Origin: Candidatus Coprousia avicola
GTDB lineage: Bacteria > Actinomycetota > Coriobacteriia > Coriobacteriales > Coriobacteriaceae
Length of the DNA: 41,190 nucleotides
NCBI GenBank assembly: GCA_018715125.1
Contig: DVMF01000046.1
Coordinates: forward strand, 1 to 41,190
Direction: 5' to 3'
This document shows, piece by piece, positions 1,397 through 4,733 of the stretch. The notes under the pieces were generated by a model that had not been told where the DNA came from, ran no database searches, and saw only the letters and a list, made by a program, of their open reading frames with translations. The translations under genes and the position numbers were made by a program. The first letter of the stretch is position 1; each line of letters begins with the position of its first letter.

Positions 1397-1996
1397 ATGA
1401 AGAAGCTCGTTACTGCTATTGCAGCGGCTGCCATGATCTTCGCCCTGCCGGGTGTCGCCATGGCCGCTGATTTCCAAAGCCCTGCCGGCACTTCGGTGAC
1501 CGATGAGGCCTCCGGCGTTGCCCTGCACGTCTCCGGCAACATCTCCGGCACCGGTTTTGTTCACGTTAACGTTACCGACAAGATCGCCTCGAACGTCCCC
1601 GAGGGCGTTGATCCCATCGCCTCCTTTGAGGTCACCAAGGATGACGGTGTGGAAATCGATGGTCAGCTGAGCTTCGTGTTCTCCGTCGGCACCCAGTACG
1701 CCGGCGCTACCGCCACCATCTACATCGAGCACGGTACTGATGGAAATGGTGCCACCGAGACCCAGACCGCCACGGTCGCTGCCGACGGCACCATCACCAT
1801 CGCTGTTGACGAGCTCTCCGTCTTCTCCGTCGTGATCGACGAGTCCACCATCCCGGCTGGCGGTGCCACTACCGACACCTCCGCCACCTCCCCGCAGACC
1901 AACGCCACGGTCGCTCCGGTTGCCATGGTGACCACCGTCGCCGTCCTCGGCGCTGGTGCTGCCGCGGTCGCCCTGCGCAAGAAGGTCAACGAGTAA
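1397..1996 (+). CDS. Secreted surface protein with SPQTN sortase signal
   Basis: This is a 199-residue precursor. Residues 1-23 form a signal peptide: MKK, a hydrophobic core, then a GVAMA|AD-type cleavage site. Residues 24-160 are a Thr/Val/Gly-rich, probably beta-strand domain with no known motif and no cysteine. The C-terminus has a complete cell-wall sorting signal: SPQTN at 165-169, a hydrophobic segment at about 173-193, and a basic tail RKK. SPQTN resembles class B sortase motifs (NPQTN in S. aureus, SPKTG/PPKTG in C. difficile) more than LPXTG. The sortase gene follows at once, which suggests a dedicated enzyme-substrate pair. The gene has a consensus promoter, a terminator of its own, and more T-ending codons (GTT, GCT) than its neighbours, all consistent with high expression. 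The function of the mature domain is unknown. Confidence 0.85.
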   Translation: MKKLVTAIAAAAMIFALPGVAMAADFQSPAGTSVTDEASGVALHVSGNISGTGFVHVNVTDKIASNVPEGVDPIASFEVTKDDGVEIDGQLSFVFSVGTQYAGATATIYIEHGTDGNGATETQTATVAADGTITIAVDELSVFSVVIDESTIPAGGATTDTSATSPQTNATVAPVAMVTTVAVLGAGAAAVALRKKVNE

Positions 1997-2032
1997 GAGG
2001 CCTTTCGCGCGGTTGCGCGGCTTCTGAGCTGC

Positions 2033-2064
2033 AAAAGGGGGCCCGGTTTCGGGTCCCCTTTTTT
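2033..2064 (+). terminator. Rho-independent terminator after the surface protein
   Basis: AAAAGGGGGCCCG (2033-2045) pairs with CGGGTCCCCTTTT (2050-2062) around GTTT, with one G-U pair, followed by further T residues. It separates the highly expressed substrate from the sortase gene, so read-through or a second promoter would set the sortase level. Confidence 0.9.
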
Positions 2065-2167
2065 GTACGTAGGGGAGTGCGGCGCCGGCGCGGACCGGAT
2101 GCCGCATCGCGACACGGCGCCCCGTGCGGATGTTGGGGCCGCACGGGTGTGCCAGCAAAGGACGGTT

Positions 2168-2968
2168 ATGGCTGCTACGGATACTCCCGAGCAGGAGAAG
2201 AAACCCAAGAAGCGCGGGGTCGCCCCGCTCGTCGCTATTCTGGTGGTGTGCCTTCTGGTCGCTGTCTGCGGCGGCGGGTACATGCTCACGCAGTACCTCA
2301 GGGCGCAGGAGGAGCTCGCGCGTCAAGAGGAGACGCCCACTCCGGAGGAGGTCGAGCCGGAGGAGGAGCTCCCCGCGAACCCCATCGACTTCGGTTCGGT
2401 AAAGCTCGACACGCCCGAGGCGTATGCCTGGATCTACATCCCCGATACGGGTGTGAACTACCCCATCATGCGAAGCGCGACGGACGACAACTTCTACCTG
2501 CGCCGCAACGAGCACGGCGAGGATTCCGTCTTCGGTTCCATCTTTACCCAGAGCATGAACGCGCTCGACTTTTCCGATCCCGTCACGCTCATCTACGGGC
2601 ACAACACGGCCAACCACACCATGTTCGGCGACGTACGCCAGATGGAGAACCCGGACTACTTCGCCTCTCACGAGACGATGTACATCTACACGCCGGGGCA
2701 CATCCTCACGTATCGCATCATCGCCTCGTATATGTACGATGACCGTCACATCATGAACAGTTTCGATTTCACCGACGTCGAGACGCGTCTGGCGTACTTC
2801 GATGCGGTCCTGCACCCCACGTCGATGTCGGTCAACGTGCGGGAGGGGGCGACGCTCGACGAGAACAGCAAGATCGTCCAGCTGAGCACCTGCCCGGACG
2901 TCAACACCACAAGCAACAGCCGCTTTATTGTGACGGGAGTGCTGATCGATGACCAACCGACCCAGTGA
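2168..2968 (+). CDS. srtB: Class B sortase
   Basis: This 266-residue type II membrane protein has a short basic N-terminus, a membrane anchor at about 18-40, an acidic Pro/Glu linker at 45-70, and a sortase domain at 71-262. The domain shows the class B pattern: NPIDF, YAWIYIPDTGVNYPIM (86-101), catalytic His145 in YGHN, catalytic Cys242 in LSTC and Arg252 in SRFIV. Sortases cleave the sorting signal between Thr and the next residue and join the protein to a peptidoglycan amine. The adjacent SPQTN protein is the obvious candidate substrate. The ATG at 2168 is preferred over upstream in-frame starts because AAAGGA (2157-2162) lies 5 bases upstream. The last 20 bases overlap the LCP gene, implying translational coupling. 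Confidence 0.92.
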   Translation: MAATDTPEQEKKPKKRGVAPLVAILVVCLLVAVCGGGYMLTQYLRAQEELARQEETPTPEEVEPEEELPANPIDFGSVKLDTPEAYAWIYIPDTGVNYPIMRSATDDNFYLRRNEHGEDSVFGSIFTQSMNALDFSDPVTLIYGHNTANHTMFGDVRQMENPDYFASHETMYIYTPGHILTYRIIASYMYDDRHIMNSFDFTDVETRLAYFDAVLHPTSMSVNVREGATLDENSKIVQLSTCPDVNTTSNSRFIVTGVLIDDQPTQ

Positions 2969-4478
2969 CGATGCGCGCCCCGCGCTCGCCGGCGCACAAG
3001 GGGGAGCCCCGGGTGCCGAGGGGGCGCCTGCTGCAAACGCGCCGGCGGGGGAGACGCCCCGCGAGGCAGCGCTCGCTCCGCGTCCGCAGGGACGCCACTT
3101 CCGCGCACCCGCCGACGGGGAGGCGCCGGCGCCGTCTGGGGCTGCGACGGCCTCGGGCGCGGTATTTGCCGAGAGCCCGGTCGATGCCGACGCCGTGGCC
3201 CCCGTGGCCCCCGCGGCTCCCATGGCAGAGGAGACGCCCGAGACAGAGGCGGCGTCGACGCCCGCATCTGTTTCGTTGGGGGATGATGACGCCCCGGGGC
3301 AGACGGATCCCTCCCCAGACCACGACGCGGCCCCCGACGCGGACCCCGCCTCCGACGATGTTCCCGCGCCCAGCGTGACCGGCAACCTGCCGCCTTTGCC
3401 CAAGCTCGAGGAGGACCCGCACGCGGGCCTCACCAAGGTGCGCAAGAAGACGCACAACCGCCTGAAGCGCCGCCTCAAGATCGCCGCCATCGTGCTCGCC
3501 GTCATCGCGGTGCTTGCGGGGGGAGCGGTCGGCATCGTCTGGGCCCTGATGGGCCAGGGCGGCGCCGCCATGAGGGAGGCCGCGCAGGCGGAGGACCTCG
3601 GCGTGGCCGAGGACGCCTCTACCGAGGACGAGGGCCAGACCGTCACCTACAACGGCCAGACCTATCGCTACAACGAGAACATCGTCTCCATCGTGGTCAT
3701 CGGCACCGATTTGGGCTGGTCCACCACCGCCGAGGGCAACGCCGGGCAGGCGGACGCCATCATGGTGGTCGCGCTCGATACCGAGACGGGCTCCATGCGC
3801 GCCATCGGCATCCCGCGCGAGACGATGGTCGATGTGGACGAGCACGTGGGCTCGGCGTTTATCGGACAGGACAAGATGCAGCTCTCGCTCGCGTACAACT
3901 TCGGCGACGGATACGCCGCAAGCAGCGAGAACGTGGTGCGGGCCGTATCGCGCATCCTGTACAACATGCCCATGACCTACTACTTCACCATCCAGATGGA
4001 CGGCGTCGCCGTGCTGAACGACGCGGTGGGCGGCGTGACCGTGACCCCGCTCGCGAGCATACCCGGCACGCGCATCCAAGAGGGCGTGCCCATCACGCTT
4101 TTGGGCAGCAACGCGCAGCGCTACGTGCAGTACCGCGACACGTCATACCTCGAGAGCTCGAGCGACCGCCAGGCGCGTCAGACGCAGTATCTGCAGGCGT
4201 TTTTCTCGCAGGCGCTCGCCACCGCGCAGGGCAACCCCCTGAGCCTGGTTGAGCTCTATCGCGCCGTGCAGCAGTACTCGACCACCAACCTCGGCATAGG
4301 CGAGTTCACGTTCTTGGCGTCCGAGGTGGTGCACAGCGGCCTCTCCAACCTGACGGTGACCACGCTTCAGGGCACGCAGCAGAAGGGCCCGCAGTTTGTG
4401 GAGTTCTACCCGGACGAGGCCAACGTCTACCAGACGGTGCTCGACACGTTCTACACGCCGGTAGACGACGTGGAGTAG
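2949..4478 (+). CDS. LytR-CpsA-Psr (LCP) family wall-polymer transferase with long acidic N-terminus
   Basis: This protein has 509 residues. LCP enzymes move undecaprenyl-linked glycopolymers to peptidoglycan on the outer membrane face. The LCP domain covers about 240-430, with VVIGTDLGW (strand 1), IPRETMVDV, DAVGGVTV and the arginine-rich block YVQYRDTSYLESSSDRQARQ, which holds the phosphate-contacting residues of the family. A single membrane segment lies at about 178-200, preceded by a basic stretch (KVRKKTHNRLKRRLK). Residues 1-150 are a disordered Ala/Pro/Asp/Glu-rich cytoplasmic region, much longer than in typical LCP proteins. Start: ATG 2949 with GGGAG (2935-2939) 9 bases upstream, inside the end of srtB. 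The coupling to the sortase suggests both act on the same surface layer. Confidence 0.9.
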   Translation: MTNRPSDDARPALAGAQGGAPGAEGAPAANAPAGETPREAALAPRPQGRHFRAPADGEAPAPSGAATASGAVFAESPVDADAVAPVAPAAPMAEETPETEAASTPASVSLGDDDAPGQTDPSPDHDAAPDADPASDDVPAPSVTGNLPPLPKLEEDPHAGLTKVRKKTHNRLKRRLKIAAIVLAVIAVLAGGAVGIVWALMGQGGAAMREAAQAEDLGVAEDASTEDEGQTVTYNGQTYRYNENIVSIVVIGTDLGWSTTAEGNAGQADAIMVVALDTETGSMRAIGIPRETMVDVDEHVGSAFIGQDKMQLSLAYNFGDGYAASSENVVRAVSRILYNMPMTYYFTIQMDGVAVLNDAVGGVTVTPLASIPGTRIQEGVPITLLGSNAQRYVQYRDTSYLESSSDRQARQTQYLQAFFSQALATAQGNPLSLVELYRAVQQYSTTNLGIGEFTFLASEVVHSGLSNLTVTTLQGTQQKGPQFVEFYPDEANVYQTVLDTFYTPVDDVE

Positions 4479-4584: not shown

Positions 4585-4733
4585 GGGGTTATTCATTCTA
4601 GTGCCTATTTCAGGCAGGGTGCAGAAAGTAGCCTTGGAATTGGGCAAGCCTGTGACCTGCGCACCTTTTGAAGCGCAACACGCTGTCTACTCTGAGAGGG
4701 GCCCTTCAACTAGGCACTAGAATGAATAACCCC
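4585..4733. repeat. 149-bp element with perfect 23-bp terminal inverted repeats (MITE-like or structured RNA)
   Basis: The left arm 4585-4607 begins GGGGTTATTCATTC and ends TGCCTA. The right arm 4711-4733 is its exact reverse complement. The 103-base interior is less GC-rich than the flanks and contains no open frame of note. CAGA/GTAG near its left side can pair with CTAC/TCTG near its right, so the whole element could fold as one long hairpin. The octamer CGTGAAAT occurs on both sides (4575-4582 and 4744-4751), like a target-site duplication, but at unequal distances (2 and 10 bases). It fills the gap between the LCP gene and the pta terminator. I see no other gene in 4479-4770. Confidence 0.8.

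Follow-up and report, generated by a model that had tools for sequence, protein, structure and literature searches.

Capsules of Gram-positive bacteria are taught as being joined straight to peptidoglycan by enzymes of the LCP family, and protein glycosylation by an LCP enzyme has, to our knowledge, been described to date in a single oral bacterium. The capsule of Mediterraneibacter gnavus is linked to colonisation and inflammation. Here we describe a locus of Candidatus Coprousia avicola that bears on both subjects. It lies in a stretch of 41,190 nucleotides (assembly GCA_018715125.1, contig DVMF01000046.1, positions 1 to 41,190), which as a whole is called the window. Within positions 1397-4478, three genes on the same strand encode an exported small protein, a class B sortase and an LCP transferase. 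We lean, with a little better than even confidence, toward the view that this triad is a surface-polysaccharide anchoring unit in which the small protein would be the covalent adaptor between polysaccharide and wall.

Two described systems resemble the locus. In Actinomyces oris, LcpA is encoded beside the sorted protein GspA and glycosylates it before sortase anchoring; its residue R128 is dispensable for GspA glycosylation (PMC6381275). The capsule cluster RGna_12030-12060 of M. gnavus holds a class B sortase gene, srtB4 (RGna_12035), and a bacterial tyrosine kinase (BY-kinase)/phosphatase pair; the locus tag next to srtB4, RGna_12040, is an LCP gene. Clean deletion of srtB4 abolished capsule display and was complemented, and the RGna_12040 mutant showed the same defect. 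The authors mention possible sorted proteins close to their sortase genes, and the study assigns neither a substrate protein nor a mechanism (PMC13121745). A review from 2025 on how capsules are attached describes direct ligation to peptidoglycan by LCP enzymes as the only covalent Gram-positive route, and the word "sortase" is absent from its text (PMC12220298).

Organization of the locus

The features of the locus are as follows.

1397 to 1996, + strand: substrate gene, encoding a 199-residue sorted protein (open reading frame; signal peptide at about residues 1-23, predicted beta-sandwich at about 31-150, SPQTN sorting signal and RKK tail)
2168 to 2968, + strand: class B sortase gene of the LCP-coupled clade, 266 residues (His145, Cys242, Arg252)
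2949 to 4478, + strand: LCP glycopolymer transferase gene, 509 residues (long cytoplasmic tail, one transmembrane segment, LCP domain)
2949 to 2968, + strand: overlap of the sortase and LCP genes, exactly 20 nucleotides (read from the sequence)
1874 to 1903, + strand: DTSATSPQTN, comprising the Asp at position -5 and the sortase motif (conserved in relatives, see below)
1478 to 1483, + strand: candidate acceptor site for glycan, the Ser28-Pro29 box of the mature N-terminus (conserved in relatives)
1301 to 1330, + strand: putative sigma-70-like promoter TTGACA-18-TACAGT upstream of the substrate gene (consensus scan, 1 match against 0.3 expected)
2037 to 2064, + strand: predicted intrinsic terminator separating the substrate and sortase genes (hairpin of -24.7 kcal/mol, z -4.2, with a T run)

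An earlier note on this DNA had given the coordinates of the three genes, an SPQTN-hydrophobic-RKK tail, a sortase with YGHN/LSTC/SRF motifs and an LCP gene overlapping it by 20 nucleotides, and all of these were recovered from the open reading frames and motifs. The sortase start was set at ATG 2168, which is preceded by a AAAGGACGG ribosome site; the mechanically derived open reading frame begins at TTG 2063. The same note had called the small protein strongly expressed. This receives indirect support from the putative promoter and from the predicted hairpin after the substrate gene. Of 60 loci, 37 had such a terminator 3' of the substrate gene, compared with 0.8% of shuffled sequence. Termination at this point would be expected to yield more substrate than enzyme, as expected if the substrate is consumed.

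Conservation of the triad

Among 60 related genomes, nine others carried an orthologous sortase (41-97% identity), and at all nine loci the substrate, sortase and LCP genes were adjacent in the order that the earlier note had read as a module. The flanking genes (nagB, pta, glf and a glycosyltransferase) were common only to the nearest locus, in Collinsella sp. An268, and were different in the other eight. Because the same three genes adjoin in all nine loci with differing flanks in eight, the triad is not a product of chance.

A scan of 84,980 species genomes yielded 411 sortase relatives, and the neighbourhood counts cover the best 80 of these. An LCP gene was located directly 3' of the sortase in 75 of the 80, which belong to Coriobacteriia and Clostridia. 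The pairing had been considered non-standard in the earlier note, and it is not a one-off. The sortase and LCP genes overlapped by 14-35 nucleotides in 62 of the 75 pairs, with an overlap of exactly 20 in 28 pairs, 17 in 19 and 23 or 26 in 11 more. A small (S/A)PxT(G/N/D) protein adjoined the sortase in about 65 of the 80 relatives, 63 of them found by script and two more (loci L091 and L120) by hand. In a control within the same order, an LCP neighbour was present within 1.5 kb of all 10 module sortases and of none of 20 other class B sortases.

The hosts in Coriobacteriia were Collinsella, Olsenella, Enorma, Thermophilibacter, Gordonibacter, Adlercreutzia and Ellagibacter; those in Clostridia were Ruminococcus bromii (two tandem copies), Oscillospiraceae and Lachnospiraceae. 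The module thus occurs widely among Coriobacteriia, Oscillospirales and Lachnospiraceae, and its place is often within a capsule operon. A literature search for a class B sortase with an LCP protein in Collinsella or Ruminococcus bromii returned no paper on such a module. At the R. bromii locus (L093, 5261-10927), two full substrate-sortase-LCP units stand in tandem, each with an SPxTG substrate, and module duplications resembling this one were seen at two further loci (L114 and L123).

The sortase

The membrane-anchored sortase contains the motifs YGHN (His145, nucleotide 2600), LSTC (Cys242, nucleotide 2891) and SRF (Arg252, nucleotide 2921). All three residues were invariant across ten orthologues. 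The protein scored 42.6 bits against the Pfam Sortase family PF04203 (cut-off 26.6) and 129.3 bits against the class B equivalog TIGR03064, whose curated cut-off is 153.75. A sequence search of solved structures gave 15 matches, of which those with a name were class B or SrtB-family sortases (best E 1e-30). By these comparisons the window sortase is class B but outside the curated TIGR03064 equivalog.

In a quick tree of 94 sortase domains, calculated without bootstrap, the module sortases formed one clade of 70 with an SH-like approximate likelihood ratio test support of 96. All 61 LCP-adjacent rows fell inside this clade, and none of the 24 rows outside it had an LCP neighbour. The 20 Coriobacteriia rows (support 98) nested within Clostridia, which suggests horizontal acquisition. 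Two sister sortases of the module clade, in Enteroscipio (L061) and Eggerthella (L077), had no LCP neighbour and had kept an SPKTG protein directly downstream.

The LCP transferase

The LCP domain scored 67.8 bits against PF03816 (cut-off 24.6). Arg290, Arg396 and Arg407 (numbering of the window LCP) were present in 102 of 102 module LCPs, and Arg410 in 99. Equivalents of the catalytic arginines R118 and R227 of TagT were therefore found, with the R290 position taken from an alignment through Lmo1026 and either R407 or R410 as the R227 equivalent. The RxD arginine (position of TagT R95 and LcpA R128) is not retained: 97 of the 102 have Gln there, in the form GQ[AS]D, and the window protein reads GQAD. 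The only other LCP of the same genome, on contig C38, retains YRTD. GQxD in place of RxD is usable as a sequence marker of the module.

The cytoplasmic tail of the window LCP carries a motif G-x-[RH]-F-[KR] at 3090-3107 (residues 48-53). It was present in the tails of 14 of 26 Coriobacteriia module LCPs (Coriobacteriaceae/Atopobiaceae), with 0.22 expected. In the genus's other class B sortase, encoded on contig C61 (L003, 688-1290), the N-terminal part contains the motif repeatedly (GKRFK/GARFK/GTRFK), and it is possibly a docking signal shared by the LCP tails and that sortase.

The small sorted protein

The substrate ends in DTSATSPQTN, a hydrophobic stretch and RKKVNE. SPQTN is a local variant in a family with mostly (S/A)PxTG signals. 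The counts for this family come from related sequences and hence are not independent trials. With that caveat, an Asp stood five residues ahead of (S/A)PxT(G/N/D) in 52 of 63 substrates, and 58 of the 63 had Ser-Pro among mature residues 1-16, compared with a mean of 4.7 and a maximum of 11 in shuffles. Within the mature body, conservation peaked at Ser28 (97% in an alignment of 30 orthologue rows).

The distance from signal peptide to sorting motif ranged across the family from about 23 to 181 residues, with about 17 in one Lachnospiraceae example, and minimal substrates had only about 17-40 mature residues ahead of the motif. As the shortest are too small for a folded domain, a role as enzyme or adhesin is unlikely for the family as a whole; some substrates would rather be an anchor. 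For the window protein, a confident beta-sandwich at about residues 31-150 was predicted, flanked by disordered ends. A fold search with this model gave weak, mixed beta-sandwich matches, among them carbohydrate-binding modules; the best had a Z of 6.5 (ankyrin ZU5 domains), and no Foldseek match had an E below 0.001. No function was read from the fold because the matches were weak and mixed. Scans against Pfam and NCBIfam placed the substrate in no family.

Further sorting signals were searched for by profile in the same genome, and with the tail profile the window protein was the sole convincing match. With the draft at 96.6% completeness and in 93 contigs, a second SPxTx protein could have been missed. 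The NCBIfam profile for SrtB targets, TIGR03063, gave zero matches in this genome, and a search of its DNA for the pattern DT..S.T.SP did no better than the control, the window match aside. Other anchored proteins of the genome carry LPQTG, LPETG, LPHTG, LPKTD and IPATG signals. Assigned by motif, they would be served by the other sortases, which occupy at least three further loci (contigs C1, C61 and C8). The idea of a dedicated module, put forward in the earlier note, gained from these results: the neighbourhood is conserved across genera and phyla, and the tail profile found no second protein of the SPxTx type. Near 40 kb on contig C1, two sortase-like genes of another class lie in one frame (L001, 1060-2883); the second shows an apparent frame change and is apparently a pseudogene or an assembly error.

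Association with capsule genes

In 11 Coriobacteriia loci the module was contiguous with, interleaved with or close to same-strand Wzz/CpsC, BY-kinase and CpsB/CapC genes, two of these loci (L052 and L065) having only one capsule regulator within the stretch examined. At two Coriobacteriia loci the gene order was substrate-Wzz-BY-kinase-sortase-LCP-CpsB, which places the substrate in the capsule operon there. In Lachnospiraceae, 41 of 150 genomes had a sortase match at E < 1e-40. An LCP gene adjoined the sortase at 17 of 20 Lachnospiraceae loci, and at an eighteenth the substrate gene was interposed. About 14 of the 20 also had at least one of Wzz, BY-kinase and CpsB, and most had a small protein of the SPKTG type. 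The window substrate profile matched small proteins at Lachnospiraceae loci with a best E of 5e-24.

In the window, glf and a glycosyltransferase gene lie 1.6-3.9 kb downstream of the module, past pta. Between the LCP gene and pta there is a 149-bp element (4585-4733) with 26-nucleotide terminal inverted repeats. It belongs to a repeat family resembling miniature inverted-repeat transposable elements, with about 10 more near-full copies in the genome at 69-74% identity. A capsule locus of the same genome on contig C26 (L199, 5844-13385) holds Wzz, BY-kinase, CpsB and putative glycosyltransferases, and neither a sortase nor an LCP gene.

Proposed function and alternatives

Gene anatomy, conservation, the clade-wide coupling of sortase and LCP, the company of capsule operons and the retained catalytic residues were observed directly. 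Support is good for the module as a unit, for its wide distribution and for the capsule link. We infer the following as regards the small protein's role as acceptor, the residue that receives the glycan, the sequence of events and the polymer involved in this genome. The small protein would be exported by Sec and retained in the membrane through its sorting signal. The LCP enzyme would then transfer a lipid-linked glycopolymer, either capsule or wall polysaccharide, onto it. The acceptor would most likely be a hydroxyl in the Ser-Pro box or in the stretches rich in Ser and Thr close to the ends. The class B sortase would cleave the SPxT(G/N) signal and couple the loaded protein to peptidoglycan, and the beta-sandwich domain could be a dispensable spacer or recognition domain. 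The earlier note had suggested that the LCP enzyme may join the sorted protein to a glycopolymer, and this is now the best-supported reading, one that we favour slightly.

Several points weigh against it. About a dozen of the 80 loci have no substrate gene nearby, and five of the 80 relatives have no LCP neighbour. Ser-Pro boxes occur with less regularity among Lachnospiraceae substrates (6 of 13), which speaks against a universal box. What ties the module to M. gnavus is the order of genes and the locus tags rather than sequence. In the genome studied here, Wzz, BY-kinase and CpsB sit on contig C26 without the module, and the window locus lacks the srtB4-type combination of a sortase-LCP pair with these genes.

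The LCP enzyme might instead attach its polymer directly to peptidoglycan in the classical manner, as in Staphylococcus aureus and Streptococcus pneumoniae, with the sorted protein as a non-covalent lectin or retention factor similar to Wzi. Known LCPs ligate to peptidoglycan (PMC12220298), and the predicted beta-sandwich weakly resembles carbohydrate-binding modules among other folds. We consider this unlikely: in several module substrates only 17-40 residues separate the signal peptide from the sorting signal and there is no folded domain, and even the best fold match described above is weak. The small protein could also activate the LCP-sortase pair, serve it as a chaperone or be a spacer that organises the export site, in which case it need not carry sugar; this seems improbable to us. 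Such a role would suit a tiny protein with both ends conserved that usually accompanies the pair, and the LCPs' long cytoplasmic tails, in which a GRHF motif is conserved (Coriobacteriaceae, Atopobiaceae), hint at organised assembly. However, a sorting signal means that the protein is moved to the wall for good, which is odd for an activator, and the frequent terminator behind the substrate gene suggests an excess of substrate over enzyme, which fits a consumed substrate.

We give still less credence to co-regulated but independent genes, with the sortase displaying an ordinary surface protein, the LCP enzyme serving wall polymers and the operon being a matter of convenience. LCP genes are often found in polysaccharide loci (PMC12220298), and the module chemistry proposed above is itself inferred. 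Against independence, the coupling is restricted to one sortase clade, the gene overlap is conserved across two phyla, and in M. gnavus the loss of the sortase alone removes the capsule (PMC13121745). The comparisons with IsdC and with pili made in the earlier note proved to be the wrong ones. A pilus was rejected because the module loci showed only the small substrate, with no tip or shaft pilin genes seen, and an IsdC-like haem role was rejected because the recurrent neighbours included no haem or iron genes.

If the triad anchors polysaccharide through its small protein, Gram-positive bacteria would have a second attachment route, with the capsule hung on a carrier protein that a sortase anchors. 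It would also explain the sortase requirement of the M. gnavus capsule and predict a gene absent from that account. The module offers a testable handle on protein glycosylation by LCP enzymes and flags an LCP subfamily by sequence. In its broadest form the proposal is a widespread and undescribed route, with a dedicated carrier peptide that the GQxD LCP subfamily loads at the conserved Ser-Pro box and that a class B sortase clade of its own attaches to peptidoglycan. Such a route would fix capsule or wall polysaccharide and would be shared horizontally between gut Clostridia and Coriobacteriia; we hold this tentatively, at somewhat under an even chance.

Comparison with known systems

SrtB of Clostridioides difficile is likewise a class B sortase with (S/P)PxTG substrates. 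Unlike the module enzyme, it is described in the literature as one sortase for scattered surface proteins, and we know of no LCP coupling for it. Cps2A and S. aureus LcpC have the LCP fold, the chemistry and the company of a capsule locus in common with the module LCP, but they ligate capsule straight to peptidoglycan without a dedicated sortase or sorted protein.

The M. gnavus srtB4 cluster shares the sortase-LCP pair with the module, and the capsule genes with those module loci that lie in capsule operons, a likeness drawn from gene order and locus tags. In contrast to that cluster, the module of the window is detached from capsule regulators. In A. oris the LCP gene is beside the sorted-protein gene, as in the window, where the sortase gene is interposed. 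The equivalents of LcpA R149 and R266 are kept in the window LCP, whereas the R128 position, in the alignment mediated by Lmo1026, is Gln in module LCPs. LcpA is stabilised by a disulfide and the window LCP contains no cysteine; the A. oris sortase is the housekeeping SrtA, encoded elsewhere, whereas the window sortase is encoded within the module. The A. oris GspA-LcpA system and the M. gnavus srtB4-LCP capsule cluster are the closest known cases.

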